From the IMG/VR virus record IMGVR_UViG_3300025312_000635, positions 1 to 52,303 of that record: a DNA stretch of 52,303 nucleotides; one strand, given 5' to 3'. The notes beneath the pieces are model-generated. The model saw only the letters and a list, made by a program, of their open reading frames with translations, searched no databases and was not told the origin of the DNA. Below are positions 6,795-44,546 of this stretch, one piece after another. The DNA is from a virus. The stretch's first letter is position 1; every line of letters starts with the position of its first letter. Made by a program: the position numbers and the translations under genes.

Positions 6795-6804
6795 TGGAGG
6801 ACAC

Positions 6805-6960: not shown

Positions 6961-7478
6961 TGCCCCCTTCGAATAGTAGAGAATATGCTAGGAATACCGA
7001 CGTAGGCCCTGAAGATCAAATAATAATCCCCAAGGGGGATCAAATGGATAGGGAGATCGCTAACCTTAGAGAATGGATGAGGGATTTAGATACTAAAGTA
7101 GATGCCCTCATAACTGAAGGGTGTAGTCATAGGGGAAATGATTTAGCCAAATTATCTCGAATAGAAGCAGCAACTGATGGATTTCGAATCGAAGCGGGGG
7201 CTATTAAAGATTCTATTTATCAATTATCCTTGTCTTTTGAACAACATAAAACTAAGGTGGTAGAGTCTACTAATTTTACTAATAATAAAATAAGTAATTT
7301 AAAATTGGGTATTTTAGCCCAATGTACTCTTTTGTTATTAGTGATATTAGGTTTTTTATTTAAGGAGTTTGTGATTCCAGCTACTAAAAATATTTCCTCC
7401 CCATCATTAATAACAGATAAGGATCATATAAATATTGACCAAGAGACTTGGGATAAATTGATAAAAAATAAAAAATAG
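6957..7478 (+). CDS. Coiled-coil protein with one membrane segment
   Basis: 173 residues. Residues 28-110 are a heptad-like charged helix (DREIANLREWMRDLDTKVD and following), residues about 117-137 form a transmembrane helix (CTLLLLVILGFLF), and 35 polar residues follow. The layout resembles spanin-like or superinfection-exclusion membrane proteins, but no signature fixes a role. The start is set by overlap with the preceding small membrane protein. Lysine-rich end (KLIKNKK). Confidence 0.65.
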   Translation: MMPPSNSREYARNTDVGPEDQIIIPKGDQMDREIANLREWMRDLDTKVDALITEGCSHRGNDLAKLSRIEAATDGFRIEAGAIKDSIYQLSLSFEQHKTKVVESTNFTNNKISNLKLGILAQCTLLLLVILGFLFKEFVIPATKNISSPSLITDKDHINIDQETWDKLIKNKK

Positions 7479-7541
7479 TAGTGAATATCTTTGATACATA
7501 CTATAGTTAAACTCAAGCGTTTTATTGTATAGGGGAGAAGG

Positions 7542-11209: not shown

Positions 11210-12556
11210 ATGGTTAAGAAGTTCGTTAAGTCAGCTACTGGCGTTTTGGTTCTCGCAACCCCAGAGCAGGAAGCGGATGCGAGTATCGAGAAATTTGAGG
11301 TGGAGGATCGCACCAACGTCAACCCGCCTGATCCCATCGTGGAACTAACTGGGATTGTTCGTGAGATGGCCACCAGTCTTAGTGATATCAAGGAGAAGGC
11401 TGATCAGCAGGGCGATGCGTTGGAAGCCTACAGGAAGGCGGTGGATCGTGGGTTTCTTCCCCCGAATCCGAAGACAGGTCCCACAGTAGATTCGGCCTCG
11501 GATGAACTGAAGAGTATCATGGGGCATTATGAACTTGCCTTCCAGGGCAAAGAACTCATGTCTCGAACGGTCCACCCGAACCATGTCATTGATGAGCCTA
11601 CTAGGTTGGAGATGGCAAAGTTTTATGCTCTTTTCCTTCGTCACACTCTTCAGCAGGATTGGAGAGCAAAAGATCAGTTTTGGAAGTATTTTGGTCCCCA
11701 GATGAAGACAGCAGTCGGGGATTCCGGAAATACTTTCCCCCTCCCGGATATTGTGGATTCAGAAATCCTTGCGTTTGCCCGTGAGGTTTCTGTAGTTCTG
11801 CAGTACTCCCGGATTTGGCCTATGTCCTCGGATAAGCAGTCCTTCCCGTCTGAGACTGCATCTGCATCAGTTGCTTGGGGGAATACCACCTCACAGTCCG
11901 AGCCGGGAATTACAGAAGTTGAGCTGGATGCCAACGAGCTTTCGGCATACAGTGTTGTGAAGAATGCCACCTTGATGGATGCCCGCTCGGACATCGTTTC
12001 TTGGCTGACGGCGGCTCTGGCAGAGGCGGCGGGACAGGAACTGGATAATCAGGCATTTAACGGTTCTGGCTCTCCGTTCTTCGGTATTCTGGATGCGACG
12101 GGTGCCGGGTATTCTGTTACGCTTGGTGGGTCTTCCTTCTCTGACGTCACCTTCACGGACTTCTCCAGTATGATTGCCAAGCTGGACGGTCTGCGGAAGC
12201 AGGGTGCCCGGTTCTGGATGCATGGACAGGGACTCCATCTGGTTCGGACGTTGAAGGATGACCAGAATCGCCCGATCTTCTACGATACTGTTGGTCAGCC
12301 CACTTCAGGGACCATTTTGGGGTTCCCGTACTCGGAAGTCATGAAGATGCCTTCCACTACGGGGGCTTCCACGGCTTTCTTGGCCTTCGGTAATCTTCGG
12401 TATCTTGGGGTTGGACGTAGGCTTGAAGTATCCACCCTTTCCGCAGATCCGTATGGCCTGTGGACTACCAACCGGATGCGGTATAAGTTGTACCAGCGTT
12501 GGGGCATGAAGATCGGACTTCGGAATGGCCTTGTCCGGATGCTGACCTCTTCGTAA
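11210..12556 (+). CDS. Major capsid protein, HK97 fold
   Basis: 448 residues. The N-terminal 95 residues are helical and charged (a delta-domain-like scaffold region likely removed by the upstream protease). The remainder is an HK97 gp5-type shell protein: ELDNQAFNGSGSPFFGIL, then the P-domain helix YLGVG...LEVSTLSADPYG and a final strand RWGMKIGLRNGLVRM. A strong AAGGAGG precedes the ATG. The gene is clearly more GC-rich and less biased to A/T-ending codons than its neighbours, as expected for a highly expressed gene or an exchanged module. A stable hairpin follows the stop. Confidence 0.95.
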   Translation: MVKKFVKSATGVLVLATPEQEADASIEKFEVEDRTNVNPPDPIVELTGIVREMATSLSDIKEKADQQGDALEAYRKAVDRGFLPPNPKTGPTVDSASDELKSIMGHYELAFQGKELMSRTVHPNHVIDEPTRLEMAKFYALFLRHTLQQDWRAKDQFWKYFGPQMKTAVGDSGNTFPLPDIVDSEILAFAREVSVVLQYSRIWPMSSDKQSFPSETASASVAWGNTTSQSEPGITEVELDANELSAYSVVKNATLMDARSDIVSWLTAALAEAAGQELDNQAFNGSGSPFFGILDATGAGYSVTLGGSSFSDVTFTDFSSMIAKLDGLRKQGARFWMHGQGLHLVRTLKDDQNRPIFYDTVGQPTSGTILGFPYSEVMKMPSTTGASTAFLAFGNLRYLGVGRRLEVSTLSADPYGLWTTNRMRYKLYQRWGMKIGLRNGLVRMLTSS

Positions 12557-12753: not shown

Positions 12754-12915
12754 ATGATACAAAATCCTACTCCCAAATCCACCAAGTACGTTTGCGGAAA
12801 ATGCAAGACTATATTTTCTCCTTGGGGAGAGGGTATGTATGCCAAATGTCCTAAGTGCGGAAGTAGAGATATCAAGGAAATGGTACAAACCAAAACGGAG
12901 GTAATTCAGAAATGA
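12754..12915 (+). CDS. Small zinc-ribbon protein
   Basis: 53 residues from an ATG behind GGAGGG. It is essentially one zinc ribbon: YVCGKCKTIF followed 15 residues later by KCPKCGSRD, four Cys in two knuckles. The TGA overlaps the next start (ATGA, 12912-12915). The next two genes also begin with zinc ribbons, so this is the first of three consecutive ribbon-bearing genes. Function unknown; such ribbons bind nucleic acid or protein. Confidence 0.7.
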   Translation: MIQNPTPKSTKYVCGKCKTIFSPWGEGMYAKCPKCGSRDIKEMVQTKTEVIQK

Positions 12916-13214
12916 AGGCTTCCTTCAAGTGTGAGAATTGTTTAGCAGAGACTATTATTTCTGGGGAAGGCCCTCGTCATTTAGGTTGTCAGTCTTGTGG
13001 TTGCGGGGATATTAAATTCGATGCTGATGTTATAGTGTCCCCTATTTCTAGTAAAGACCCGGGAGATGTCTTTCCCCCAGTTTTTGTGAAGAAAGGAGAG
13101 AGTTTTTTGGGTAGTCATTCCTCGGGATGTTCTTGGAAATTAACTTTTCCTGTCGTTGTCCCTGCTGTAGTCCCTGTACTGAAAATTAGAAAACCCCTTA
13201 CTCCCAAGGGCTAA
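12912..13214 (+). CDS. Zinc-ribbon protein
   Basis: 100 residues. Two knuckles, FKCENCLAET and LGCQSCGCGD, form a zinc ribbon at residues 5-33. The rest is beta-rich with a valine/proline-rich C-terminus. Translationally coupled to the preceding ribbon gene and 10 nt from the next. The ribbon resembles those at the N-terminus of the adjacent 1058-residue enzyme, suggesting duplication or a shared binding partner. Function unknown. Confidence 0.65.
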   Translation: MKASFKCENCLAETIISGEGPRHLGCQSCGCGDIKFDADVIVSPISSKDPGDVFPPVFVKKGESFLGSHSSGCSWKLTFPVVVPAVVPVLKIRKPLTPKG

Positions 13215-13224
13215 GGGGAGGGAA

Positions 13225-16200
13225 ATGCCGGATTTTACAATAATTTGTAGTAAGTGCAAAAAAACAAAAACCTTTAAGCATCCTACTAGGGCTACTTTAA
13301 CTTGCCAATCTTGTGGTAATAAGAGTGGTTTTGTTTCCCACCCAGAAGATTTTGAGTATAATGCCTTAATCCTCCGTTGCCAGAAATGTGATGAATCTTT
13401 TTTAGTTAAATTTGGTTTGGATTCTTTATTGCGTTGCCCCTCTTCTAAATGTGGTGGTTTTCTTTTGGATTCTATCGAATTTGTTTCTATATCTACTATA
13501 CAGGATCAAATGGAGAATAAAAAATCAAATGTAGTTATGGATAATTTTCCTAAAAACTCTTCTTTTTTAAAACGCAACAAAATTATTTATAAAACGTCTG
13601 ATGAAGGTATGAGAATAGCTATTCCTTATTATTATGGTGGAAGTAGAATTCAACGGGCAATAGAAAGTTGGATTTATCCGGAAACCGTTTTTGTTTTAAC
13701 AGATCTGGGGATCATCCCACCTGGGAATGGTATATGTAGCCAAATATTCACGGAAAAAAATTCTAAAACAGAAGGATTGAATAATAGAACGCAGCCTTAT
13801 TTAATAGATATTCTTTCTAGATTAATTAAACTTTTTCCTTATGAGAAGTATTACGGTTATTTTAATTCTGATGTTATCCTTCCCCCAGGATCTATTATAA
13901 AAAGTTTGATTCCTTCTGAAGGAAAAAAGATATCTTTTCATCATAGAATGGATCATAAAGGATCTGCTCAAGATTCTATTTATAAATTGGAGAAGAAGAA
14001 CCAAGTATTTTGTGGTAAAGATGGTTTTATAGGAGAAGCGCAAGTAATAAGAGATATAGTAGCAAATGTAAAAGATATGGTTTTGGGGGGGGCTTCTTGG
14101 GATGATGGTTTAGCTGTTTGGTGTTTCCAGAAATATGGCAGAGATAAAGTTGACCTTCGCTATGGGGAAATTTACCATGTTTTGCATCCTCAAGTTTGGA
14201 ATGCTGATGATAAGGAATCTACGTTCAATCGTAAACAATTACAATCTATGGGTATATCTGATACCAAAAGGCAATCTTTTAATTGGTTTAAACAGTCAGA
14301 AGGTAGTATCGAAGATTCTTTAGAAGAAAAACATAAATCTTTAGGATTAATACAACCCGGTAGAATTGGTGATATAATAATCGTTCTTCCCATAGCTAAG
14401 TGGTTTCACGATTTGGGTTATAGAGTAATTTGGCCAGTAGTATCAGAATATATAAATTTGTTCGATTACGTAAATTATGTCGATGTTGTTGATTTGGGTT
14501 CTGGTTTAGGGGGTTCTTATAAAAAGTCTAAAGAGGTACTGAAAAATAAGGGTGTTTCTCAGATACTAGATTTAGGTATAGGATTTGGAAAAGATGAATC
14601 TGAGTGGGTTAATTCTGGTATGTCTTTTGATGAGTGGAAATATAAAGAAGCTTGCGTTCCTTTCGAGGAGCGATTTAATTTGGTTATAAATAGAAATTTT
14701 CAAAAAGAATTGGATTTGGAAAAATCTTTATGTATATTGGGGGAATTCGTATTAACGCACTCCGTTGGATCTAAAGGAAGAATAAATTTTGGTAAAATAA
14801 ATTCTATAGAAATTATGGCTAAGACTGGTTTCACTGTTTTTGATTGGATACGGGTGGTAGAGAAAGCAAAAGAAGTTTACTGTGTAGATAGTTGTATAGC
14901 ACATTTGGTTAATCAATTGGGTTTGGCAGTGGGTCGTAGAACGTTTTCTCCCTTGAAGGATTACCATGGCAGATCTCTTGCTATGGCTGTTCCTAAGATC
15001 AATTGGGAAGGTGAGAGGGTATCTACTGTAATTAGAAAGTCCCCCATCGTACCGGACAAATCAAGTGGGCTATTGTTGGCATCTTTACCGGGGCTTCATA
15101 CGGGGAACTGGCCTTTGTATCCGTTAGGGATAGGTTATCTTCATTCTTCTTTGAGCAGAGATAGGGATGTTCGGTCTATACATTTTCAAAAACAATCCCA
15201 TATGGAGAGTATTTTTCCTAAATTAATAAAAAAATTACTACCCGATATTGTGGGTTTCACTTGCACTACTTTTAATAGGGGAAATGTCAGGAGGGGAATT
15301 AAAACGGTGAGAAGTATTTCGCCCAAAACTAAAATAATTTTAGGGGGAGTTCATCCTACTTTTCTTCCCCATCAGATGATAGAAAATTATGGTGCCGATT
15401 ATGTGGTAATGGGGGAAGGAGAAAATACTCTTAGAGATTTATGTCATATAATTGATAATGGAAAATTACCCTCTGATCTTAGGGGGGTGGCATATAAAAA
15501 TGAATCTGGAAATATTTTTGTAAATGATCCCGTAAGTCCCATAGATAATCTTGATTGTCTTCCTCACCCTGATTTTAGTTATGCAGAACAAATGATAAAA
15601 AATAGTGGGATGGGAAGTATTATTACTTCTAGGGGTTGCCCAGCTAAATGCGGATATTGTTCTACCAGTCATTATTGGGGCCAAAAAGTTAGGGCACACT
15701 CCGTAGATTGGGTTTTGAATGAAATAGAAAGGCAGATTGAACTTTATGGAATAAATAAATTACTTTTCCACGACGATTCTTTTAATTTGTCTCCATCCAG
15801 AGTTCAAGAAATTTGTAAAGGAATGATAGAAAGGAAGTTTGATTTAGTTTGGGCAGCTCAAGGCAGAGTCCACCCCGTTTCTAGGGAAATGTTAGATATT
15901 ATGGTGGAGGCGGGGTGTCGTCATATTTGTTGGGGGGTAGAGTCTGGGTCTAAAACTATGCTTCAATCTATGAGTAAAAAAATTAGTTTAGAACAAATTA
16001 AAAGGACTTATGAATTATGTTCTAAATATGAGGGAGTATTAACTACTGGTGCTTTTACTATGGTGGGGTATCCAGGGGAGAGTTCTCAAACTATTAAAGA
16101 AACATGTGAATTTTTAAATACGGTTCCTATGACGGATTCCCCCAGCACCGCTATTTTATATGTACTCCCCGGAACAGAGGTTTACAAACAATTGGGAAAT

Positions 16201-16401
16201 AAAATAAATGATGATTATTGGGTAAATACGGAGGATGTTTTTTATAATACCACTGAAAATAATATAAATATTCTTCAGGGTTGGGCTAATAAAGTAAATT
16301 CAAGTGGGAAGAAAATCCCTGCTGATTCTACTAAACATTTTTGGAACAACATATTATTTGGTAGTATTGCAGAACCTATACCACCTAGTATAGATATTTA
16401 A
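13225..16401 (+). CDS. Multidomain zinc ribbon - glycosyltransferase-like - GT9-like - B12/radical SAM fusion
   Basis: 1058 residues. Two zinc ribbons occupy residues 8-30 (C8, C11, C27, C30) and 52-76 (C52, C55, C71, C76). Residues 128-330 resemble a GT-A fold with an NSD motif at 214-216 (GYFNSDVILPPG). Residues 372-585 resemble the GT9 heptosyltransferase fold (LIQPGRIGDIIIVLPIAKWF near 374-393, YCVDSCIAHLVNQLG near 552-566). Residues 615-745 match the cobalamin-binding domain of class B radical SAM proteins, without the DxHxxG histidine. Residues 795-1000 are a radical SAM barrel with C805, C809 and C812 (RGCPAKCGYC) for the 4Fe-4S cluster. I infer sugar transfer coupled to a radical modification such as methylation. 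The substrate is unknown. Confidence 0.85.
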   Translation: MPDFTIICSKCKKTKTFKHPTRATLTCQSCGNKSGFVSHPEDFEYNALILRCQKCDESFLVKFGLDSLLRCPSSKCGGFLLDSIEFVSISTIQDQMENKKSNVVMDNFPKNSSFLKRNKIIYKTSDEGMRIAIPYYYGGSRIQRAIESWIYPETVFVLTDLGIIPPGNGICSQIFTEKNSKTEGLNNRTQPYLIDILSRLIKLFPYEKYYGYFNSDVILPPGSIIKSLIPSEGKKISFHHRMDHKGSAQDSIYKLEKKNQVFCGKDGFIGEAQVIRDIVANVKDMVLGGASWDDGLAVWCFQKYGRDKVDLRYGEIYHVLHPQVWNADDKESTFNRKQLQSMGISDTKRQSFNWFKQSEGSIEDSLEEKHKSLGLIQPGRIGDIIIVLPIAKWFHDLGYRVIWPVVSEYINLFDYVNYVDVVDLGSGLGGSYKKSKEVLKNKGVSQILDLGIGFGKDESEWVNSGMSFDEWKYKEACVPFEERFNLVINRNFQKELDLEKSLCILGEFVLTHSVGSKGRINFGKINSIEIMAKTGFTVFDWIRVVEKAKEVYCVDSCIAHLVNQLGLAVGRRTFSPLKDYHGRSLAMAVPKINWEGERVSTVIRKSPIVPDKSSGLLLASLPGLHTGNWPLYPLGIGYLHSSLSRDRDVRSIHFQKQSHMESIFPKLIKKLLPDIVGFTCTTFNRGNVRRGIKTVRSISPKTKIILGGVHPTFLPHQMIENYGADYVVMGEGENTLRDLCHIIDNGKLPSDLRGVAYKNESGNIFVNDPVSPIDNLDCLPHPDFSYAEQMIKNSGMGSIITSRGCPAKCGYCSTSHYWGQKVRAHSVDWVLNEIERQIELYGINKLLFHDDSFNLSPSRVQEICKGMIERKFDLVWAAQGRVHPVSREMLDIMVEAGCRHICWGVESGSKTMLQSMSKKISLEQIKRTYELCSKYEGVLTTGAFTMVGYPGESSQTIKETCEFLNTVPMTDSPSTAILYVLPGTEVYKQLGNKINDDYWVNTEDVFYNTTENNINILQGWANKVNSSGKKIPADSTKHFWNNILFGSIAEPIPPSIDI

Positions 16402-16411: not shown

Positions 16412-17281
16412 TTGACTATTCATTTTTTTACCATAGTATTAAATGGAATGCCCTTTATAAAGTACCATATAAAGGTTCTGAAAAATCTCCCCTTCGATTG
16501 GCATTGGCATATTATAGAAGGAATTGCGGATTTAAAATACGATACTTCTTGGTCTTTAAAAACGGGGGGTATGATTACGGAAAAACTTCATAGGAATGGA
16601 TTAAGTAATGATGGAACAACCGAATATATAGATACTCTGAAAAAGGATTTTCCTAATAATATTTCTGTATATAGAAAAGATTTGGGTAATTTTTGGGATG
16701 GAAAAGTAGAAATGGTAAATGCTCCTATTCCTTATCTCCCTGATCAGTGCCTTCTTTGGCAAATAGATGTAGATGAGCTTTGGGATTTAGATGGAATTTC
16801 TAAAATGGTGGATATGTTTAAAAATAATCCAAATAAAATGTCAGCTTTTGTATATTGCCATTATTTTGTAGGACCCACTAAATTTGTGGTTTCTATGAAT
16901 ACTTGGGCCACTTTACCGGAAGATTGGTTGAGAATATTTAGGTTTAATAAAGGAATGTATTGGAGCAAGCATGAACCGCCCACATTGGTAGATAAAGATG
17001 GTATTGATTGCGGAAGAAAAAGTTTTATAAGTAGGGATGATACTCTAGTAAAGGGAATAACTTTTCAACACTTTGCCTATGTAATTCCCCAACAAGTTTT
17101 ATTCAAGGAAATATATTATGGATATAGGGATGCTTGTAGTTATTGGAGAAATTTGCAAAAAAGTAGGGGTGCGAGGATAGATGTCAGTATGTATCTTCCT
17201 TGGGCAAATAACGCCATTATAGAAAATTGGGATGAAAAGAAACGTGGGAAGTTATTATATCCGGGAGAGTGCATAGAATGA
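16412..17281 (+). CDS. Glycosyltransferase-like protein (GT-A)
   Basis: 289 residues from a TTG behind AAAGGAGATAA. The start TIHFFTIVLNGMPFI is typical of GT2-like enzymes, and QIDVDELWDL (DxD at 119-121) is the metal/nucleotide-sugar motif. The middle has aromatic-rich segments (FVYCHYFVGPTKF). It overlaps the next gene by four bases. The family transfers a sugar from a nucleotide donor; the acceptor here is unknown. Its placement in the island suggests it works on the same glycan as the neighbouring enzymes. Confidence 0.8.
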   Translation: MTIHFFTIVLNGMPFIKYHIKVLKNLPFDWHWHIIEGIADLKYDTSWSLKTGGMITEKLHRNGLSNDGTTEYIDTLKKDFPNNISVYRKDLGNFWDGKVEMVNAPIPYLPDQCLLWQIDVDELWDLDGISKMVDMFKNNPNKMSAFVYCHYFVGPTKFVVSMNTWATLPEDWLRIFRFNKGMYWSKHEPPTLVDKDGIDCGRKSFISRDDTLVKGITFQHFAYVIPQQVLFKEIYYGYRDACSYWRNLQKSRGARIDVSMYLPWANNAIIENWDEKKRGKLLYPGECIE

Positions 17282-18078
17282 ATAATATAGACATTTTGCA
17301 GAAGGATTGGCATATAAAATGGTACCGGGATATATTAGAAGGTGGACCAGAAAAGTGGGATGGTTTTGTCAACCCTGATAGTATTTGGAGTTGGATGCAT
17401 ACTTATTGTATAGATCATATTAAAGAATTTTTTCAAAATATTCCCCCATCTACCATTATTACTTTGGGGGACGGATATTGTGGTAGAGAAGCAATTCATA
17501 TAAAAAGAATAAATTCTAATCACAAAGTCCACGCTTCGGATTGGCAACCGTGTTTGATAGAAGTATCCCATAAATTGGGACTAGTAGATGAATTTTCTAA
17601 TCAAGATATAGGAAATTTAACTTTTGAAGACGATTCATTTGATTTTGTTTTTATAAAAGAATCCCTTCACCATATGTCCATGCCGTATAAAGGATTGTAT
17701 GAAATGTTTAGGGTGGCAAAAAGGGGGGTTATTTTAATAGAACCTAGTGGGGATAATGATCCAAAATATCATTTTAATAAATATGAAATCGTAGGTAACT
17801 ATGTATTTGGTTTTTCTTCACATGAGTTAATTAAAATCGGGTTATCATACGGAATTAAAAACTTTGTTTGGACTTATTCCTCCGTTCATTTTGGACGACA
17901 TGATATTGATAATATTAATTTAGGAAAAATAGATGAAGAGAAAAAACGATTAATAGAATTAGATGATAAAATTCCTATAAAAGATAAGCCATTGATGATA
18001 TTTTTCTTTTTGAAAGATAAAGAATTATTAAATCATTTTACTGATAAGGATAAATTTAGTAAATTCGAATTTATATAA
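17278..18078 (+). CDS. Class I SAM-dependent methyltransferase-like protein
   Basis: 266 residues from the ATG at 17278, chosen because it overlaps the upstream stop (ATGA). The glycine-rich loop ITLGDGYCGREA lies near 60-72, an acidic SAM-ribose position in HASDW follows, and DDSFDFVFIKESLHHM is the motif II/III region of Methyltransf_11-type enzymes. The C-terminus is lysine- and isoleucine-rich with strongly A/T-biased codons. Substrate unknown; a sugar methyltransferase would suit the surrounding glycosyltransferases. Confidence 0.8.
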   Translation: MNNIDILQKDWHIKWYRDILEGGPEKWDGFVNPDSIWSWMHTYCIDHIKEFFQNIPPSTIITLGDGYCGREAIHIKRINSNHKVHASDWQPCLIEVSHKLGLVDEFSNQDIGNLTFEDDSFDFVFIKESLHHMSMPYKGLYEMFRVAKRGVILIEPSGDNDPKYHFNKYEIVGNYVFGFSSHELIKIGLSYGIKNFVWTYSSVHFGRHDIDNINLGKIDEEKKRLIELDDKIPIKDKPLMIFFFLKDKELLNHFTDKDKFSKFEFI

Positions 18079-18080: not shown

Positions 18081-18206
18081 ATGGGGAAGGTGTTTAGTAA
18101 AATGCATATAAAAAAGGCTTTGGGCAGATGCCATTCCGAAGAGACCAAACAAAAAATGAGATTAGCTAGATTGAAATATTATTCGTTTAAAGGAGAGAAT
18201 AAATGA
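18081..18206 (+). pseudogene. Detached NUMOD-like remnant of a GIY-YIG homing endonuclease
   Basis: An open frame of 41 codons encoding CHSEETKQKMRLARL, the NUMOD3-type DNA-binding motif also present several times in the GIY-YIG gene at 19449-20118. The 24 nt at 18138-18161 match 20014-20037 with one difference. No catalytic domain is present. It overlaps the next start (ATGA, 18203-18206). Most likely a leftover from insertion and loss, or from recombination between homing endonuclease copies; it may still be translated. Confidence 0.65.
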
Positions 18207-18772
18207 TTCCTCATTATTCAGATTTTAAAGATAGGATCGAATCTGTGGAGGGTCTTCTTCTTCCTGGAGAAGACGAGTTTTTATTTAATATGGCGGCCCA
18301 AATGCCAGAGGATGGCGCTATAGTCGAAATGGGGAGTTATTTGGGGAAATCTTCGGTGTCTTTAGGATTTCCCTGTTTAGGAACTAAAAGAAAATTATAT
18401 TGTATTGATCTTTGGGGGACAGAATCTTGGTTTACTAGTTGGAAAGAAACTATAAATAAATTTGGACTTTCTGAAAATGTAATTCCGTTGAGAGGATTTG
18501 CTGGAGATGTTTTACGAAATTGGGAAAAGTTGACTGGAGGAGTAAAAATAGATATGGTATTTAATGATACTTCTCATTGTCTTCCTAGTATTTTGAACGA
18601 ATTTATTTTGGTTTATCCTTGGGTAAAGAACGAAGGTATAGTGGCTTTTCATGATTATACTCAGGCATCTTACCCCGACGTAGCTAAAACTTGGGATGTA
18701 GTGAAAACAATGTTATTGAATCATAAAGCCATGGTATCTATCGTATTGGGAAGAAAGGTGGAAATCAAGTGA
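18203..18772 (+). CDS. Methyltransferase, Methyltransf_24/CmcI-like
   Basis: 189 residues. It shows VEMGSYLGKSSVSLGF (SAM-binding loop, about 41-56), YCIDLWG (acidic residue binding SAM ribose), then DMVFNDTSHC and IVAFHDYT, the strand-end motifs of Methyltransf_24 proteins, which are common in glycan and surface-polymer clusters. Overlaps of four bases on both sides couple it to the NUMOD remnant and the following gene. The methyl acceptor is not determinable. Confidence 0.8.
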   Translation: MIPHYSDFKDRIESVEGLLLPGEDEFLFNMAAQMPEDGAIVEMGSYLGKSSVSLGFPCLGTKRKLYCIDLWGTESWFTSWKETINKFGLSENVIPLRGFAGDVLRNWEKLTGGVKIDMVFNDTSHCLPSILNEFILVYPWVKNEGIVAFHDYTQASYPDVAKTWDVVKTMLLNHKAMVSIVLGRKVEIK

Positions 18773-19452
18773 ATTTAATGATGGTAGATTCCCTCTCCGT
18801 TTTTGGTAAAATCTTGAGAGAGATTATTAAAGAAACTAAGCCAAGGAAGATTATTGAAACAGGGACTTATTTGGGAGAGGGGACTACCACAGTAATAGCA
18901 TCTGCTGTAAGAGATTTTAATATTGATTTAGAAAAATTTTATTCTATAGAAGTTAACCCCCAATATTTTAGGTCTGCATATATTCATCTTAGAAATTTAG
19001 GGCTTTTGGAATTTGTAACTCTGGAGAATGGTTTATCTATTTATAGAAAACAGCTGCCAAATAGAGATAAAATAAGGGAGATGTTTTTAGATACTATTTG
19101 GCCTGACTATGTGTATATAGATCATAATAAAGATATTAGGGTAAATAAATATTTTGAAGAAACTAATTTTGGTGATGTTCCTGAGGGGTTGTTAATAACG
19201 TGTTTAGAAAAGTTGGAACAAACCCCTGATTTAGTATTGTTGGATAGTGGTGGTCACGTGGGGGAGCTAGAGTTTGATACTTTGATTCCTATGTTGAAGG
19301 GGCCTTGTATTATAGCACTTGACGATATTTATCATGTAAAGCATTATAATTCTCTTGTAAAAATAAAGGAAGATAAGCGATTCAAAATAATGGAATTATC
19401 TAAAGAGAAGTTCGGATTTTGCATCACTAAGTTCATTCCGGAGGGAAATTGA
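18769..19452 (+). CDS. Methyltransferase-like protein (class I fold)
   Basis: 227 residues with a GTG start overlapping the upstream stop (internal ATGs at 18778 and 18781 are alternatives). KIIETGTYLGEGTTTVIAS at about 26-44 is a SAM-binding loop, YSIEVNPQYF carries the acidic ribose-binding residue, and DLVLLDSGGHVGELEFD and IIALDDIYHVKHY match motifs of the neighbouring Methyltransf_24-type gene. A segment near residues 113-135 (YIDHNKDIRVNKYFEE) is an insertion relative to it. Third methyltransferase-like gene in a row. Confidence 0.75.
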   Translation: MNLMMVDSLSVFGKILREIIKETKPRKIIETGTYLGEGTTTVIASAVRDFNIDLEKFYSIEVNPQYFRSAYIHLRNLGLLEFVTLENGLSIYRKQLPNRDKIREMFLDTIWPDYVYIDHNKDIRVNKYFEETNFGDVPEGLLITCLEKLEQTPDLVLLDSGGHVGELEFDTLIPMLKGPCIIALDDIYHVKHYNSLVKIKEDKRFKIMELSKEKFGFCITKFIPEGN

Positions 19453-20118
19453 GAAAATTAATTCCCCTCAAGTATAGTATTATTTACAAAACGACTAATA
19501 ATATAAATGGTAAAATTTATATTGGTAGAAGTGGGAAAAGAGATTCTAAATATTTGGGATCTGGTAAATTTTTCCTTCGTTCTTTAAAAAAAATATGGCA
19601 AACAAAATTTTAAAAGGGTAGTGATAGATAAATCCGATAATAAAAATGAACTTTGCTTAAAAGAAATATTTTGGATTAAATTCTATGATGCTAGAAATCC
19701 AAATGTTGGGTATAATATTGGTCTTGGGGGGGAAGGTACGGGGTCGGGGGAAGATCATCCTTTTTACAGGTTGTTTGGGGAAAAACACCATCGTTATGGT
19801 AAACGGTATTGCCATAGTGAAGAGACTATACGTAAAATGAGTTTAGACCGTCGGGGGGAAAATAATAATAATTACGGTAAAATTACCCCCGAAGAGACTA
19901 AACAAAAAATAAGAAAATCATTGGTAGGAAAAAAACTTTCTGACGAACATAAACGAAAGATAAGGGAGTCGGCATCTGGGGAAAATTATGGTATGCGAGG
20001 AAAGCATCATAGTGAAGAGACCAAGCAAAAAATGAGAAAACCAAAATCAGAAGAATCTAAAAGAAAAATGAAGGAAGCTTGGGTAAAAAGAAAAGAAAAG
20101 AAAGGATTGGTAGAATGA
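19449..20118 (+). pseudogene. GIY-YIG homing endonuclease with NUMOD repeats, frameshifted
   Basis: The first frame (TTG 19449 to TAA 19613) encodes the catalytic start: YSIIYKTTNNINGKIYIGR (a GIY-YIG variant with Y, IYIG and the following Arg), then YLGSGKFFLRSLKK. The second frame (in-frame from the A-run to 20118) gives FKRVVIDKSDNKNELCLKE with the downstream catalytic Glu region and NPNVGYNIGLGGEG, then four NUMOD3-like repeats (HSEETIRKMS, TPEETKQKIRK, SDEHKRKIRE, HSEETKQKMRK). Removing one base from the A8 run at 19586-19593 restores a single frame. This may be an inactivating mutation, a sequencing error in a homopolymer, or less likely a programmed shift. Confidence 0.8.
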
Positions 20119-21122
20119 ATATTTTAAAACTTTTTTGGGGAACTGTTACCAACGATCAAAATATCGGGAATTTATTCGGCTATCGCGTTCATAATGAAAT
20201 GTTAAAAAAATATATTAAAATGAGGGACGATGTTATATTGGTGGGTTCTGTAGAGGAAGCAGAGGCTTGTTTATATATTTCTACACCAGAGATATTCGAT
20301 CATCGACCAAATAAACCGACTTTTCTTTTTACGATGTTCGAGGCCCTATCGTTGCATCCGTTGTATGCCGAGAAAATACAAAAGGCAGATTTTATACTAG
20401 TGCCCAGTACTTTTGTGAAGGGTGTTTTTTCCCCCCATTTTCCAGAAAATAAAATTTGGGTAGTTCCCCATGGGGTAGAAGAAGATTTCAGATTTGTTCT
20501 TAGAAAAAAGAATCCAAAAAAGTTTCGGTATTTATGGATAGGTGCACCGAATCCAAGGAAAGGCTATCAAGAACTTATCTATGTTTGGGGGAAATTAGGT
20601 CTTTCTAATAATCCAGAAATAGAGTTATATATTAAGACAACGCGTGTCCCTAATGTCACAATACAGAGAAAGGGAAACGTGATTTTAGACAGTAGAATCG
20701 CCACTAGAGAGGAAATGATCAAAATTTATCAAGATGCTCATTGTTTTGTTTGGCCTACTCGGGGTGAGGGGTGGGGCCTTCCTTTGGCAGAGGCCATGGC
20801 TACTGGGTTGCCTTGTATAGCAACTGGTTTTAGCGGAGTGCTGGACTTTTTCGATTCAAAAGTAGGCTACCCCTTAAAATATAGTTTGGGTTTGATGGAT
20901 ATGACTTCCCCTATTTTTGGAAATATGGGTAAGGTAGAAGCGGCCTTACCCGATGTTAAAGATTTAATAGAAAATATGATTTATGTTAAAAATAATTATA
21001 AGCATGCCTTGCAAAAAGGCAGATTAGCAAGCGCGAGGATAAAGGCAAGATTCACTTGGGAAAACTCCGCTGAAAATCTAGTTAATGCTATTAGAGAAGG
21101 ATTATCAATAAGAGGTAATTAA
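20115..21122 (+). CDS. GT4-family glycosyltransferase
   Basis: 335 residues from the ATG at 20115, which overlaps the preceding TGA. GT-B fold: RYLWIGAPNPRKGYQEL (about 138-154, start of the donor-binding domain) and PTRGEGWGLPLAEAMATGLP (214-233) with the EX7E pair E218/E226 that contacts the nucleotide sugar. The N-terminal acceptor domain has VPSTFVKGVF and VVPHGVEEDF, standard for retaining GT4 enzymes. Last gene of the accessory island; the connector gene begins 2 nt after it. Confidence 0.85.
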   Translation: MNILKLFWGTVTNDQNIGNLFGYRVHNEMLKKYIKMRDDVILVGSVEEAEACLYISTPEIFDHRPNKPTFLFTMFEALSLHPLYAEKIQKADFILVPSTFVKGVFSPHFPENKIWVVPHGVEEDFRFVLRKKNPKKFRYLWIGAPNPRKGYQELIYVWGKLGLSNNPEIELYIKTTRVPNVTIQRKGNVILDSRIATREEMIKIYQDAHCFVWPTRGEGWGLPLAEAMATGLPCIATGFSGVLDFFDSKVGYPLKYSLGLMDMTSPIFGNMGKVEAALPDVKDLIENMIYVKNNYKHALQKGRLASARIKARFTWENSAENLVNAIREGLSIRGN

Positions 21123-21123: not shown

Positions 21124-21696
21124 ATGGCCTATTGCACGAAAGCAGAAGTAAAGTTATATTTAGATATTAGGGAAACTGAGGTTGAAAAGGATGCTTTGAT
21201 AGAAGCTTTGATTATTTCTTCCCAGGCTTTTATTGATGAGTATTGTAATAGAGTTTTTGAGCAAGCAGCGGTAACTGAATACCACGATGGAGGATCTAAC
21301 CGGATATTTCTTGATAGATACCCTATAGCATCTTCCCCTGCTGTTCAGATTTGGGATAGTTGGGATAGGGCTTACGCAAGCACCGATTTAATTGATACGG
21401 ATGATTACTTTGTCGATTCTGAGAATGGTATTATCAAATTTGACTATGACGTTGGTGGATCTCCCGGAGCGGTGAAGATTGTATATACAGGGGGATTTAC
21501 TGTTATTCCGACTCCTATTTCTCAAGCTTGTATTGAGTTGGTTGCTAGGAAGATCAAGGAGGGGCCTAGTGGAGGATTGGGGGTTCCCAGTAGGGCACTC
21601 CCCGGTGGCGGAAATGTAACATATGTGATTGATGCTCTCTTTCCCCAAACCAAGGTTGCTTTGGATGCTTATCGAAAGATGGGGAGTTTGGGATGA
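21124..21696 (+). CDS. Head-tail connector protein, HK97 gp6-like
   Basis: 190 residues. The N-terminal helical repeat (AYCTKAEVKLYL, then ALIEALIISSQAFIDEYCNR) and the following beta strands (RIFLDRYPI, VKIVYTGGF) match gp6/gp15-type adaptor proteins that form a ring under the portal. The final part (SQACIELVARKIKEG) is the conserved helix. It overlaps the next gene by four bases. Such genes normally follow the capsid gene directly; here 8.5 kb of island separates them. Confidence 0.85.
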   Translation: MAYCTKAEVKLYLDIRETEVEKDALIEALIISSQAFIDEYCNRVFEQAAVTEYHDGGSNRIFLDRYPIASSPAVQIWDSWDRAYASTDLIDTDDYFVDSENGIIKFDYDVGGSPGAVKIVYTGGFTVIPTPISQACIELVARKIKEGPSGGLGVPSRALPGGGNVTYVIDALFPQTKVALDAYRKMGSLG

Positions 21697-23352: not shown

Positions 23353-23451
23353 ATATTCAAGTATAGAAGTTTTTGTACAATTAGTCTACTATTAAATTGG
23401 CGCTCTTCCTCGGCTTGAGTATTTGGGGATATTTGTACTAAGGAAGGTGTT

Positions 23452-39653: not shown

Positions 39654-40331
39654 ATTCTTGTTCCCCCTAGAACAACCGATATGACTGGGACCCAATTCTT
39701 TCGTTTGACTGTATTAGGTCTTTCTAGAATTGATAAAGACAAACGGGGGACTACTTCTTTTTGGGAATGCCTCTGCGAATGCGGAAATTATCATATTGTT
39801 GCTAAAGATAAACTCAAACTAACAAAAAGTTGTGGATGTTTGAAAAGGGAGATTATCAAAGCCGGGGCAAATTTCAAACATGGTTTTTGTAAGGATGGTC
39901 AGATAACTCCGGAATATAGTTGTTGGTCAGGAATGAAGGATCGTTGCTATTGTGAAACCAATCGCAAGTATCCTCGTTACGGTGGAAGAGGAATTACCAT
40001 TTGCGATGAATGGAGATATAATTTTGAGGCTTTTCTTGCATATATGGGACCCTGTAATGGGAAAATAATTGATAGAATTGAAGCAGACGGTAACTATGAA
40101 CCGGGTAATTGCCGTTGGGTAACTCCTGCAATATCCAATAGAAATTATTCAACTAGAAATCGTAATTATACCCATAATGGCGAAACAAAGTGTTTGAAGG
40201 ATTGGGCAGCTCATTTTGGCATAAACTATGCTACCCTCTGGCAACGAATTAAAGATGGCCTAAGTTTTGAGGAAGCCATAGCCCATCGCCTTAGAGAAAA
40301 AATTGTCGTTAGTCAGGTTATTTCTATTTAA
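39651..40331 (+). CDS. HNH homing endonuclease
   Basis: 226 residues. A Cys cluster at 44-63 (WECLCECGN...KSCGC) precedes the HNH core GKIIDRIEADGNYEPGNCRWVT at about 136-158, the usual pattern of phage HNH endonucleases with a DRID-type motif. The C-terminal AAHFGINYATLWQRIKDG is a HTH-like DNA-binding segment. It is the last plus-strand gene of the late operon; its TAA overlaps the stop codon of the convergent minus-strand gene at 40328-40331, leaving no room for a terminator. Confidence 0.9.
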   Translation: MILVPPRTTDMTGTQFFRLTVLGLSRIDKDKRGTTSFWECLCECGNYHIVAKDKLKLTKSCGCLKREIIKAGANFKHGFCKDGQITPEYSCWSGMKDRCYCETNRKYPRYGGRGITICDEWRYNFEAFLAYMGPCNGKIIDRIEADGNYEPGNCRWVTPAISNRNYSTRNRNYTHNGETKCLKDWAAHFGINYATLWQRIKDGLSFEEAIAHRLREKIVVSQVISI

Positions 40332-43297
40332 ACGTATTTCCCTTCTCTCAAAGACATTTGATGTTTAAGAATTCCACCAACAATTTGAGAAGCTATTTCA
40401 GAATTAGGGAATCTAGTTTTAACATCTCGTAATTGAATTCCATCTAGAATAAAAGTAAATATCATATCTTGCCCCAATCCTAGTAAAGCGTTAGCAGTTG
40501 AATATAATTCAATCGCATCTAACATAATAGGATCAGCGGGATTTGGTAAAAATTTAGTTTCAAATATATGCTTAGCCCTCATAGCCCACTCCCGACAGAA
40601 ATCATCTGGAGGAGTCCCAGGGGGAAAACGATTCATTCTATCTTTTATGATATGAATACAATCCCTCATGAATAGGAATTTCATCAAATCCCGATCAGGG
40701 CATTCTTTGTAATCTCGAAGAAGCAAATCAATATTTCTGAGGAATCTTTCATTTCTGATTTTATCTGTTAAATACCCGTCATGACCAATCCAAAAGTCTG
40801 GCATAATAATTCCCAAACCAAATCCCTTGTTCAATTCTAATTCGGGATGTTCATGAATCAAGCCAAAGAATTTGGCCCCCGTATTGTTTCTAAATAAGCG
40901 TGTAGGTAGGTCGGGCTTAAAAGGATTGGGGGGGTCTACGGACAAATGATGTTGTTGTATGCCATATCCGTTAAAGGGGTTCGCCCGAAGATATTTATTA
41001 ACGTTTTCTGGATTGAGTAGAACTTCATCAGAGTCAATCCAAAGTATCCAATCTCCCTTTGCATCTTTGATGCTTAGGTTTCTGGCGGCTCCGAATCCTT
41101 CCTTGAGAGGGTCAATTCCTTTTAAAATCTTGGCCCCATATTTTTGAGCAATTTCTTTGGTGCTATCATTAGTTTTCGGATCTACTGCAATAATGATTTC
41201 GTCGGCTATTTTAGAAACAGATTTCAAACATCTATGAAGCATATCTTCTGCATTATATGCTATCATACAAACTGAGAGAGTTTCCTTTGGAGCTTGCCAT
41301 ACCATCTTTCTTTCAAAATTAACACGGTTAGTCGGAATGCTAGAATCCTTAGTATATGAGATAAAGTGGTGCCCAATAACTTCTCCAGAATTGATTCTTC
41401 CCGTAGATCTAAAGAAAACTTTGATATCTTTTTTCTCACTAAACATATCCAAAATGTCGTTCATTTCGTAATGGCGAACGTGGCATCTATGGGGGAAGGT
41501 ATAGTATGATAAATATTCCCAAGGTCCATATGGAACTGTCAAGTAAATAGTTCCCCCTTCTTTGCATAAAGTTTCTAATTGATCAATAAGATGATAGGGG
41601 TCAATAACATGTTCTAATACTTCATTGCAAAATACTAAGTCAAAAGTCCCCCCGCCTATTTCTAATATTTTTTCTATAGGATGAGAGGTCATTTCATCTG
41701 TAGATATGAATTTAATATTTTTATGCTCAGAATATTTTTCTTTGCATTTGTTAGCAGTATCAATAGTTTTTCTAGTTATATCTAGCCCCAAAAATTGACT
41801 ATCTGGGAAAAGATTTGCCATTCTAATGGTTTGATGCCCAATCCAGCAGCCGTAATCAAGGACTTTTTCATACGGACCAGAAGTTTCCAAAAACTCTTTC
41901 ATAATCAACCATCGTGGCTCACTTCCGCTAGTTTCAAAGTGACTAACTTTGGCCCCTTCATGCTTTGTTCCCTCTATAGGAGCATCTACTTTTTTATATT
42001 GTTCTCTATATGTTTCAGGAGATTCCATAAAAGAGAAATTATCATGGATATATTTAACATCATTCTTTACCAAATTGAGATTATGGCATTCTCTTTCAAA
42101 ATGTACGGCAACCCCATTTTCTTTTGCTTCTATAATATTACACATTTCAATATCAGAATTTTTAAAGAAATGCTTATACAATCTAGCGGGGTTACTTGAT
42201 TTTTTTCTCATAATTTTATCAGATATATTTAACAATCGATCTGCTACAGGCCCCCAAATCAATGTTTTCCCGTGTTCCATACCCGCTATGGACATGTTTT
42301 TAGTAATAGAGGGCTTATTTAAAAGTTCTTCAATAACTTTAATAAATTCATTTTGGCAAGCCTCCGTAGAAGCTAGTCCAAAATCAGTAGTATTGATAAA
42401 TTTAGTGGCACCAGGATGAAGAGTTTCTACCAATGCGGCGGTTGGAGTCGTAATGAAAGGAAGTCCGCAAGCTTGGGCTTCGATAGCACTAATGCAAGAA
42501 ATCTCATCAAACTCTGTGGGGTAAACGTAAGCCCAAGAACGAGAATATAAATCATATAATTGAGCTTTTGTTAAAGATCCCAGTAATTGAACGTTGGGAA
42601 GTGCTTTGCACCTTTCCCAAAGATGTTCGTAATATGCTCTTATCCCCGGAACGGTATTGTCATAGTGGGCTACCATAAGTTTTACAGAGATTTCTTTCTT
42701 GAGAAATTTTTCCATAATTCCATTTTCTTTGACAAGATTTTCCAGACCTCGTTCTGGTCTAGCACAGTAGACCATTTGCCCTAAACTTCTGACGGAATTG
42801 AGTCCGTCAGGAATCAAGGAAACGTCTATCCCATTTCTGATCACTTCAATTGCTTCTTCGGGGATTTCATAAATTTCTTTATATTGATTCTTTTGAAATT
42901 GAGACATAAGAAGAACGCGATCAACTTGAGTTAAAATTCCCCTCATATTTGGGGCAGTTCTTTTGAGAGCGAGGTCATGGCACCATAAATAACAAGTTTT
43001 AGCATTATGGGGGGTTTGAAGAATACCAAAATCTCTGGATACGATGAGCATATCTATATCTGAATGAGACATTAATTCTTGACCTTGTTGTAGGGGGATG
43101 TACATTACCCCCCTGATTCCCATTGGAGCATCGCAAGGACTCAGAACTACCACCCTATTTCTTCCGCCAAAAGCATCTTTTTTAGAAGCAAAGGATTCTG
43201 CTAATTGAATAGCGGCGGTTTCTGATCCCCCTAATGAGCTTTTGGCCAAGGTGTTGCCATCGTGTTTCATTCCGGGGGAAACAATGATAATATTCAT
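40328..43297 (-). CDS. GT4 - methyltransferase - GT2 three-domain fusion
   Basis: 989 residues from the ATG at 43297 (GGAG about 9 nt upstream, overlap with the previous stop). Residues 1-365 are a GT4 domain (SSLGGSETAAIQLAE, VYPTEFDEISCISAIEAQACG). Residues 455-650 are a class I methyltransferase (VLDYGCWIGHQTIR, FDLVFCNEVLEHVIDPY). Residues 675-890 are a GT2 domain (VCMIAYNAEDMLHRCLKSV, GDWILWIDSDEVLL with DxD). The C-terminal 90 residues are helical. One polypeptide could add two sugars and a methyl group to the same glycan. It lies at the end of the minus-strand operon, physically apart from the glycosylation island. Confidence 0.9.
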   Translation of the reverse strand: MNIIIVSPGMKHDGNTLAKSSLGGSETAAIQLAESFASKKDAFGGRNRVVVLSPCDAPMGIRGVMYIPLQQGQELMSHSDIDMLIVSRDFGILQTPHNAKTCYLWCHDLALKRTAPNMRGILTQVDRVLLMSQFQKNQYKEIYEIPEEAIEVIRNGIDVSLIPDGLNSVRSLGQMVYCARPERGLENLVKENGIMEKFLKKEISVKLMVAHYDNTVPGIRAYYEHLWERCKALPNVQLLGSLTKAQLYDLYSRSWAYVYPTEFDEISCISAIEAQACGLPFITTPTAALVETLHPGATKFINTTDFGLASTEACQNEFIKVIEELLNKPSITKNMSIAGMEHGKTLIWGPVADRLLNISDKIMRKKSSNPARLYKHFFKNSDIEMCNIIEAKENGVAVHFERECHNLNLVKNDVKYIHDNFSFMESPETYREQYKKVDAPIEGTKHEGAKVSHFETSGSEPRWLIMKEFLETSGPYEKVLDYGCWIGHQTIRMANLFPDSQFLGLDITRKTIDTANKCKEKYSEHKNIKFISTDEMTSHPIEKILEIGGGTFDLVFCNEVLEHVIDPYHLIDQLETLCKEGGTIYLTVPYGPWEYLSYYTFPHRCHVRHYEMNDILDMFSEKKDIKVFFRSTGRINSGEVIGHHFISYTKDSSIPTNRVNFERKMVWQAPKETLSVCMIAYNAEDMLHRCLKSVSKIADEIIIAVDPKTNDSTKEIAQKYGAKILKGIDPLKEGFGAARNLSIKDAKGDWILWIDSDEVLLNPENVNKYLRANPFNGYGIQQHHLSVDPPNPFKPDLPTRLFRNNTGAKFFGLIHEHPELELNKGFGLGIIMPDFWIGHDGYLTDKIRNERFLRNIDLLLRDYKECPDRDLMKFLFMRDCIHIIKDRMNRFPPGTPPDDFCREWAMRAKHIFETKFLPNPADPIMLDAIELYSTANALLGLGQDMIFTFILDGIQLRDVKTRFPNSEIASQIVGGILKHQMSLREGKYV

Positions 43298-43533
43298 CAG
43301 CAATCTCCTATGATAGTACGAATATTCTTTTTATTTGTTCGAATAATCTCAATAAGAGCATCTATTATGAAATATGGACTAGCAACCATTGGTTTGGCGG
43401 TATCTTGGGGAACTGCCGAATGTATAGGGCATTTATACCATCTGGTTCGGGGACAAGTACATTTTATTTTACTCTCATTGCAAACACAAGAAAGATTTCT
43501 ACAAATTGAGCACTCGCTATCAGGAGTTTTCAT
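43297..43533 (-). CDS. Small Cys-rich protein
   Basis: 78 residues. Eight Cys in the first 40 residues (CSICRNLSCVCNES, CTCPRTRWYKCP), followed by a hydrophobic C-terminal half (YFIIDALIEIIRTNKK). Possible compact metal-binding domain. Start and stop overlap both neighbours (ATGA/TGATG). No family recognised. Confidence 0.65.
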   Translation of the reverse strand: MKTPDSECSICRNLSCVCNESKIKCTCPRTRWYKCPIHSAVPQDTAKPMVASPYFIIDALIEIIRTNKKNIRTIIGDC

Positions 43534-43676: not shown

Positions 43677-43824
43677 TTTTATCCCTTTCATTTATTAGAT
43701 GTTTCCCACTACAACCTCGTAATTTATAAACATCTGGATCTATTTCTATACAAATTGGTTTATAGTCGATACAGCCTAGAATAATCTTACAATAACAATT
43801 ATCTCCATAGCATATATATTCCAT
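43645..43824 (-). CDS. Small Cys-rich peptide next to the radical SAM gene
   Basis: 59 residues, with Cys at CYGDNCYC, GCIDYKPIC and GCSGK and one near the end. Its ATG overlaps the stop of the radical SAM/SPASM gene (TAATG, 43822-43826), so the two are co-translated. It resembles a metal-binding mini-protein. A precursor peptide for the neighbouring radical SAM enzyme is conceivable but unproven. The 3' 32 nt overlap the basic ORF. Confidence 0.55.
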   Translation of the reverse strand: MEYICYGDNCYCKIILGCIDYKPICIEIDPDVYKLRGCSGKHLINERDKNEKNSCKKTS

Positions 43825-44546
43825 TATTTTACCCTGGCCATTCCTTCAGGAACATCTTCATGGCAAGTATTGCATTGAATATATGGTGTATGAATAATCT
43901 CTAAAGAATCGTCCCATACTGTTCCCAAAATCCCCCTAGAGTAGGCATCTTGGCAACAACGTGTTATATCTCCATTACTCATAACCATTACTTGCCCATT
44001 TTTAAGCCATGGGCAAAGGACTCTAGATCTGTAATCTTCTGGAGTCCAGTTTATCAGTCCCCCCCAATTATTCGGTCTTATGATAGCATCTCGGGAATAC
44101 CCAAATTGGACTTTAGGATATTCTAAACGCAATTTATTAAATAGTCCTACTGTTTTCATAGCTATAAACGCATCATGATCCGTAACATCTATTGCATCTA
44201 TTCCCGCATCAAGAATTTTACGGATTAATTCTTCGTCTGCCAAAATTCCATTTGTATTGGTACGGAGGCAGAGATACCGAGGCATTATGGTTCGACAACG
44301 TTTAACCATTTCAATATATCGGGGGTGTAGAAAAGGCTCCCCCACCCCAAATAAATTGAGTTCTCTTTGGGTTCCTTTTTTAACAAATATTTCAAGTAAT
44401 TTGAGAGTTTGTTCAAAGGTGGGCCATTCCATCAATCCAACTGGCCTATGCTCCCCTTGACCAGAACAGGGACAATATGGACAAGATAGGTTACAAATTG
44501 AAGAAACTTCTAAATTTTTGATACATCCTATTTTTTGATAAATCAA
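43824..44546 (-). CDS. Radical SAM protein with SPASM-like C-terminus
   Basis: 240 residues from a TTG. CNLSCPYC near residues 18-25 binds the SAM-cleaving 4Fe-4S cluster, followed by LNLFGVGEPFLHP (SAM contact). The end has LCPWLKNGQVMVMSNGDITRC and CNTCHED, the Cys layout of a SPASM/twitch auxiliary-cluster domain. At 240 residues it is shorter than most SPASM enzymes (usually 350 or more). It is coupled to the HTH protein upstream and the Cys-rich peptide downstream. The substrate could be a peptide or a sugar; neither is shown. Confidence 0.8.
   Translation of the reverse strand: MIYQKIGCIKNLEVSSICNLSCPYCPCSGQGEHRPVGLMEWPTFEQTLKLLEIFVKKGTQRELNLFGVGEPFLHPRYIEMVKRCRTIMPRYLCLRTNTNGILADEELIRKILDAGIDAIDVTDHDAFIAMKTVGLFNKLRLEYPKVQFGYSRDAIIRPNNWGGLINWTPEDYRSRVLCPWLKNGQVMVMSNGDITRCCQDAYSRGILGTVWDDSLEIIHTPYIQCNTCHEDVPEGMARVK

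Follow-up and report, generated by a model that had tools for sequence, protein, structure and literature searches.

The closest described counterparts of the protein reported here come from the algal virus PBCV-1, in which capsid glycans are built by multidomain polypeptides: A064R joins two glycosyltransferases (GTs) and a methyltransferase in one chain, and the single protein A111/114R, which works on the capsid N-glycan, contains three GT domains (excerpted text of PMC7826918). Here we describe a fusion gene in the IMG/VR virus record IMGVR_UViG_3300025312_000635, a stretch of 52,303 bases analysed at its full length (hereafter the window), whose portal, capsid, tail and replication genes mark it as a tailed phage. 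The gene (13225-16401, plus strand) is an open reading frame (ORF) of 1058 amino acids whose ATG is preceded by the ribosome-binding-like stretch GGGGAGGG, and its product consists, in order, of two zinc ribbons, a GT-A domain, a GT9-like GT-B domain, a B12-binding domain and a radical S-adenosylmethionine (SAM) core. Like A064R it is a viral polypeptide joining GTs to a modifying enzyme, the window fusion and its counterparts in L004 and L034 having several GT domains plus the modifier. Unlike the window fusion, A064R belongs to an algal virus and has an O-methyltransferase in place of a B12 radical SAM enzyme, and the excerpted text mentions no zinc ribbons in it (PMC7826918). Compared by description, the three GT domains of A111/114R resemble the GTA-GT9-GT2 series of the window relatives, and the same text describes no modifying enzyme fused to them (PMC7826918).

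For the radical SAM unit, the nearest described likeness is to GenD1 and GenK of the gentamicin antibiotic pathway, which are cobalamin-dependent radical SAM enzymes methylating unactivated sugar carbons (excerpts of PMC4340712); the likeness is one of description. Glycosylation of phage capsids has been reported only recently, for the mycobacteriophages Che8 and Rita, and phages of this type have glycans on the major capsid protein together with putative GT genes (PMC11256854, in excerpt). The GT genes of Maravista lie near the genome 3' end, unlike the capsid-adjacent cassette of the window, and the excerpt mentions no radical SAM fusion (PMC11256854). A B12-binding radical SAM protein of Streptomyces phage SF3 is 26% identical over 28% of the query. 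Unlike the fusion, the SF3 gene (L089, 7680-9179) is free-standing beside thymidylate kinase and NUDIX genes with no GT annotated within 8 kb, and it is perhaps a different phage use of this enzyme type. Searches of the open-licence literature for a radical SAM-glycosyltransferase fusion in phages listed no paper whose title or abstract beginning describes one. Each domain is of a known kind; what is new is the B12 radical SAM module in what is very probably a viral multidomain glycan enzyme.

Domain architecture of the fusion protein and its relatives

The domains of the fusion protein are located as follows:

13225..13515, plus strand: two zinc ribbons, residues 1-97, with eight cysteines (C8/C11/C27/C30 and C52/C55/C71/C76)
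13555..14334, plus strand: GT-A glycosyltransferase domain by predicted fold, residues about 111-370, NSD at 214-216
14341..15039, plus strand: GT9 (heptosyltransferase)-like GT-B domain by predicted fold, residues about 373-605
15100..15441, plus strand: B12-binding domain, residues about 626-739 (PF02310, E 3.5e-19)
15619..16116, plus strand: radical SAM core, residues 799-964 (PF04055, E 3.9e-19), CPAKCGYC at 805-812

A sequence-only reading of the window had numbered the ribbon and radical SAM cysteines and named an NSD motif, and its numbering proved exact when the sequence was re-read; the GT9-type motif words that it had announced were located as QPGRIGD at 377 and DSC at 555. Its cobalamin-binding-like domain ahead of the radical SAM triad was likewise recovered by Pfam, where both the B12-binding match (residues 631-739, 69.3 bits against a cut-off of 32.1) and the Radical_SAM match (69.9 bits against 29.5) exceeded the curated cut-offs. 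Pfam ribbon matches at the N-terminus remained under cut-off, residues 100-600 matched no Pfam family at E <= 1, and a PHROGs search with the protein gave weak matches only (best E 0.0022). Searches of PDB sequences with sequence profiles yielded one poor match for one GT domain (E 0.79) and none for the other.

The two middle domains were modeled with AlphaFold, the structure prediction that the earlier reading had proposed as a check of its GT assignments, and the models together with fold searches support GT folds of the GT-A and GT9/GT-B types. The GT-A region, predicted from 8 aligned viral lineages, reached a pLDDT of 74 and a pTM of 0.77. Foldseek returned 172 PDB matches to it at E <= 0.001, and the best 50 of the 172 were mostly GT-A enzymes with a few nucleotidyltransferases; the top VIA match was heparosan synthase 2 (Z 13.5; root mean square deviation (rmsd) 3.3-4.0, 196-201 residues aligned). 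Structures titled as the glycosyltransferase for the PBCV-1 major capsid, which we take to be A064R, occupied Foldseek ranks 20, 26, 35 and 38 with 8-12% identity, a likeness at the level of fold only. The NSD, a DxD-like motif, was invariant in all eight aligned GT-A sequences. The GT9-like region, predicted from 14 aligned viral sequences, reached a pLDDT of 84 and a pTM of 0.81, and its top VIA match was a Veillonella GT9 protein (Z 12.6, rmsd 4.2, 229 residues aligned). Further VIA matches were the GT9 heptosyltransferases WaaC and heptosyltransferase II, together with TibC, so that by model the domain shares their GT-B fold; GT9 proteins led at Z 10.9-12.6 and other GT-B enzymes scored Z 9.4 or lower. 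Three chains of the chloroplast NDH complex scored like GT9 proteins (Z 11.4-12.4).

IMG/VR scans, counted as one entry per distinct lineage, yielded nine lineages with the GTA-GT9 pair: the window, L004 (with L005 and L006), L034, L007/L008, L035, L036, L048/L095, L049/L096 and L097. In L004 (1350 amino acids) and L034 (1354 amino acids) a single ORF reads ribbons-GTA-GT9-B12rSAM-GT2, whereas in the window the GT2 unit is the next gene after ribbons-GTA-GT9-B12rSAM. Four lineages have ribbons-GTA-GT9-GT2 without a radical SAM unit between GT9 and GT2, namely L007/L008 and L035, whose fusions end within GT2 at the contig end, L036 (902 amino acids) and L049 (850 amino acids). L048 has GTA-GT9 alone, its first 110 residues appearing out of frame, and L097 has GT9-GTA-GT9-GT2 (1069 amino acids). 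The radical SAM unit is thus fused in three of the nine lineages (window, L004 and L034) and not in the other six, and because of the four lineages that have the series without it, the sequences mark it as a module gained or lost. The eight ribbon cysteines are kept in six of seven ribbon-bearing lineages, L049 keeping seven of the eight, and the cluster motif C805/C809/C812 (CxxxCxxC) is invariant in all three lineages having the radical SAM unit. Gain versus loss of the unit was addressed with two trees, one of the GT part (8 rows, leaving out ribbons, radical SAM unit and L097) and one of the capsid protein (7 rows), neither of which contained a starred branch; the best joins in the GT tree were window with L004 (91/95) and L007 with L035 (90/100).

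L097, a 46-kb contig of a distant phage, carries at 1955-8595 a cluster made up of its four-GT-domain fusion, which has a PF01075 match in the N-terminal part, then genes for FrhB/FdhB-like, polysaccharide pyruvyl transferase and Methyltransf_24 proteins, and a separate B12-radical-SAM gene (449 amino acids, 26% identical to that of the window). The genes that come next resemble, by eye, a tail operon. L097 was the sole match in a radical SAM profile search of 15 records (1/15). Fused in some lineages and separate in L097, the B12-radical-SAM enzyme accompanies this GT set in two arrangements.

The ORF following the fusion (16412-17281), passed over by the sequence-only reading, corresponds to the third GT domain of the same polypeptide in relatives. 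The fusion ORF stops at TAA, and the GT2 gene starts with TTG 10 bases later behind AAAGGAG. Since GT2 is fused in seven of the nine lineages (two of these ending at a contig end), a split in the window's own line is the simpler reading. PF00535 matched the GT2-like part in the window (E 0.02), L004 (0.0025) and L049 (6.9e-10); L036 gave no match.

A fusion protein 100% identical to that of the window is encoded on IMG/VR contigs from two other samples, 3300025146 and 3300025289, with L003 agreeing letter for letter. A 90,296-base IMG/VR contig encodes the identical fusion protein and an identical copy of a second fusion of the window (see below), and it overlaps the window from window base 5390 on, as judged by two exact 200-base probes; the final 200 bases of the window had no letter-for-letter match in it. 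We treat this contig and the window as the same or nearly the same virus. Among 50,697 phage records, three matched the fusion protein (28-30% of the query, 23-26% identity), two matched the GTA-GT9 part (25% of the query, 29% identity) and none matched GT2. Free-standing GT9-like genes were found in other viruses (L050-L057, some of these loci being near-copies of one another), with a GT2-like gene adjoining or near in 7/8 loci.

Rough NG86 dN/dS ratios were 0.25 and 0.21 in the radical SAM part and 0.09 and 0.07 in the capsid protein, dS being near or above 1 throughout and saturated in 2/10 comparisons; roughly estimated in this way, the part is under purifying selection. A first genome scan for the origin of the unit confirmed 0/110 stretches, and a second scan with the radical SAM core alone gave 24 loci at no more than 40% identity. 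The flanks of seven of these 24 loci were viewed, and all seven showed an asparagine-synthase-like ORF by eye.

The capsid-adjacent cassette and a second glycan locus

The fusion gene lies in a cassette bounded by a major capsid gene and a connector-like gene:

11210..12556, plus strand: major capsid protein, upstream of the cassette (PF05065, E 2.3e-34)
12912..13214, plus strand: 100-amino-acid CxxC ribbon-like protein between capsid and fusion genes (Pfam ribbon matches under cut-off)
16412..17281, plus strand: third glycosyltransferase, GT2-like, 68% identical to the C-terminal part of the L004 1350-amino-acid ORF
17269..18078, plus strand: class I SAM methyltransferase (PF08241, E 8.2e-10)
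18203..18772, plus strand: Methyltransf_24 methyltransferase (PF13578, E 2e-14)
18769..19452, plus strand: second Methyltransf_24-like methyltransferase (PF13578, E 1.1e-4, 23.5 bits against a cut-off of 26.3)
20079..21122, plus strand: GT4-type glycosyltransferase (PF13692, E 6.5e-13; phrog_2170, E 5.4e-37)
21124..21696, plus strand: head-tail connector-like gene, end of the cassette (PF05135, E 0.0032, 18.3 bits against a cut-off of 21.2)

In all seven ribbon-bearing lineages the fusion gene comes after the major capsid gene. The 100-amino-acid ribbon-like protein has a recognisable relative in five of the six other ribbon-bearing lineages, so that, the window included, it sits between the capsid and fusion genes in six of the seven. 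Homology of this small protein to the ribbons of the fusion itself was considered and is unsupported (BLASTP, 17.3 bits, E 0.028). In L048, a CxxC ribbon was absent from all frames of the 800 bases examined. Downstream of the fusion, the window and L004 alike have three methyltransferase genes, then a GT4 gene and the connector gene. Amino acid identity between the two viruses is 87% for the capsid protein, 50% for the ribbons, 66% for GT-A, 72% for GT9, 66% for the B12-radical-SAM unit and 68% for GT2. Two cassette genes reach 89% and 85%, near the capsid level, and the tape measure protein falls to 59%; faster evolution of the cassette thus holds for part of it only.

A hydropathy scan of selected proteins showed no cassette protein above a 19-residue Kyte-Doolittle mean of 1.50 and no membrane protein among them; a 173-amino-acid protein upstream of the portal gene reached 2.55. 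The base composition changes along this region, the capsid gene having 52.9% G+C, the cassette behind it about 34% and the whole window 38.6%. A NUMOD3/homing-endonuclease-like gene lies within the cassette (19621-20118), where L004 has no counterpart ORF. TnpB/IS605 OrfB-like genes (PF07282, PF01385) occur in the window (22267-23352, minus strand), overlapping an ORF at 22264-23418 on the plus strand, and in L022 (11344-12663, minus strand); in both viruses they lie antisense near the connector gene, at positions that are not identical.

A second glycan locus was identified on the minus strand of the window:

40328..43303, minus strand: second fusion, GT4-methyltransferase-GT2, 991 amino acids (PF00534, PF13847 and PF00535, all over cut-off)
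43824..44546, minus strand: second radical SAM gene with a SPASM-like end, beside the second fusion (PF04055, E 6.1e-14; PF13186, E 0.014, under cut-off)

The second fusion has a relative (54%) on L028, a different virus contig.

Proposed function and alternative explanations

Against the background of the observed domain order, its conservation, the gain or loss of the radical SAM module and the gene neighbourhood, we propose that the GT-A, GT9-like and GT2-like units would add sugars stepwise to an acceptor, with presumed catalysis and a presumed order of steps, the GT2-like unit working as a separate chain in the window and as part of the fusion in relatives. One of these sugars would be altered by the B12-binding radical SAM unit, most likely through methylation of an unactivated carbon that draws on methylcobalamin and a 5'-deoxyadenosyl radical. 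O-methyl groups may come from the class I methyltransferases encoded nearby and a further sugar from the GT4 enzyme, and docking on the acceptor may be the role of the two zinc ribbons. Given that capsid and connector genes flank the cassette, this acceptor is most likely a virion protein; expression would be late. The nucleotide-sugar epimerase/dehydratase gene on the 90-kb contig and the roughly estimated purifying selection on the radical SAM part also count in favour of this proposal.

The fusion is very probably a glycan-building enzyme, and its radical SAM unit probably acts on the glycan built by its own GTs. We lean slightly towards the virion as the target of the cassette. For C-methylation as the radical SAM reaction the chances are about even, and opinion is equally balanced on the overall picture of a soluble phage glycan assembly enzyme whose radical SAM unit alters a sugar, with a virion protein as likely acceptor. 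The sequence-only reading had suggested that the protein builds a sugar and then methylates an unactivated carbon, and this appears plausible in view of the capsid-adjacent glycan cassette, the gain or loss of the module and the B12-radical-SAM gene beside a related GT fusion in L097. More tentatively, the virion may carry a C-methylated glycan, made by one polypeptide in which three GTs and a B12 radical SAM methylase act in series on a virion-bound acceptor, with the radical unit swappable for coat variation; this is possible, but we would sooner doubt it than rely on it. If true, no earlier assembly line of GTs and radical SAM enzyme, and no earlier case of radical chemistry on a virus coat, would be known to us. 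The family can be viewed as a bacterial-virus version of the multi-enzyme glycan polypeptides, with a B12-type radical enzyme built in. The natural variants include forms that have the radical unit, forms that lack it and one whose last transferase is encoded separately, so the contribution of the radical step to the viral glycan is directly testable by comparison, and the family could yield a tethered tool for C-methylating sugars.

Several results weigh against the proposed glycan assembly on the virion. Proximity to the capsid gene is circumstantial evidence; where GT9-like relatives stand alone in other viruses, they are grouped with other glycan genes, and the stretches holding them yielded no relative of the window capsid protein. 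Foldseek results for the GT9-like model were modest, with three matches at E <= 0.001 (WaaC, the best at 4.6e-4, the Campylobacter protein CJ0600 and the Veillonella GT9 protein), and the lower rows include unrelated proteins such as biotin carboxylase. Unlike the GT9 heptosyltransferases, the domain matched neither PF01075 nor any other Pfam family at E <= 1, and because of the missing PF01075 match it is named GT9-like and not GT9. In five of the nine lineages the fusion lacks the radical SAM unit, and their contigs, themselves fragments, yielded none; the basic function can therefore do without it. Family membership does not settle the type of reaction, because none of the best 25 of 31 matching NCBIfam models reached its subfamily cut-off, the top one, PhpK, scoring 156 of 600 bits. 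Moreover, the two fusions can occur apart, since the 49.7-kb record L028 holds a relative of the second one but nothing that matches ribbon-GTA-GT9; none of the four virus contigs of the second fusion (L024-L026 and L028) matched the N-terminal 600 residues of the first.

The cassette might alter a host surface glycan, for example the lipopolysaccharide (LPS) core, and so block superinfection or change receptors. In its predicted fold the GT9-like domain is similar to WaaC and heptosyltransferase II, enzymes of the LPS core that do not require a membrane segment, and free-standing GT9-like and GT2-like genes lie among other glycan genes in other viruses. The GT2 part of the second fusion points the same way through weak matches (E 0.0019 and 0.0041) to GtrB-like families of O-antigen conversion. 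We nevertheless regard a host-surface target as unlikely: the location of the fusion gene behind the capsid gene in every ribbon-bearing lineage suggests expression with the virion genes, and the cassette proteins scanned for hydropathy included none resembling a flippase or membrane transferase. By its sequence the cassette does not have the features of a Gtr-type O-antigen conversion cassette; it holds no GtrA Pfam match and no membrane flippase or transferase genes were seen in it, genes elsewhere not being scanned. Modification of phage DNA, yielding glycosylated and methylated hypermodified bases, appears far less probable still. Phage base hypermodification does use glycosyltransferases, zinc ribbons can bind nucleic acid, and a pentose on cytosine in the DNA of phage Thanatos is the stated subject of a published paper. 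Yet the gene order is with head genes and not with replication genes, and the thymidylate-synthase-family base hydroxymethylase (PF00303), a marker of hypermodification, was found in none of three records including the 90-kb contig (control, 9/14 genomes), records that may be incomplete and in which other base-modification routes were not searched.

As to the reaction itself, B12-binding radical SAM enzymes perform methylations and also ring contractions and rearrangements (excerpts of PMC8992657). The unit could accordingly run another such reaction on a sugar or nucleotide sugar (dehydration, epimerisation or a ring change). The NCBIfam models that it matched below cut-off have mixed functions by name (PhpK P-methyltransferase, HpnJ, BchE cyclase, AprD4 diol-dehydratase), and a putative apramycin biosynthetic oxidoreductase and OxsB were its second and third matches among PDB sequences. 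Methylases are numerous among the characterised B12-binding radical SAM enzymes, and the cassette itself is rich in methyltransferases, which argues against a different reaction; we rate it as on the unlikely side, though to be taken seriously. It is hardly credible that the fusion arose by chance or misassembly or that its gene is decaying. Two points could be read that way: only metagenomic contigs are known, and GT2 is split off in the window and fused in relatives. Chance or assembly error is excluded because the same order recurs in two independent IMG/VR phage lineages, at 50-72% identity to the window by domain, so the chimera that the sequence-only reading had named as a risk is not what we found. 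In addition, the protein is identical in contigs from two other samples, dN/dS is well under 1, and the split GT2 gene has its own ribosome-binding-like stretch.

Inteins and glycan genes elsewhere in these viruses

The 90-kb contig contains a nucleotide-sugar epimerase/dehydratase gene interrupted by an intein (L019, 10423-12690, minus strand). Inteins were also observed in the DNA polymerase A gene at L018 13639-17163 (minus strand), which in addition carries a uracil-DNA-glycosylase domain, and in the portal gene of the L004 virus (L021, 16112-19357, plus strand). Two further genes of the 90-kb contig (L019, 5300-8135 and 12687-15230, minus strand) are seemingly broken by split inteins near Cys-rich motifs, with endonuclease-like ORFs between the halves, and one of them has a weak radical SAM match; the layout resembles the arrangement called a fractured gene. 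In the L004 virus, GT2 genes (PF00535) lie far upstream of the portal gene (L021, 2488-3273 and 4641-5573, plus strand), so glycan genes occur at more than one place there too.

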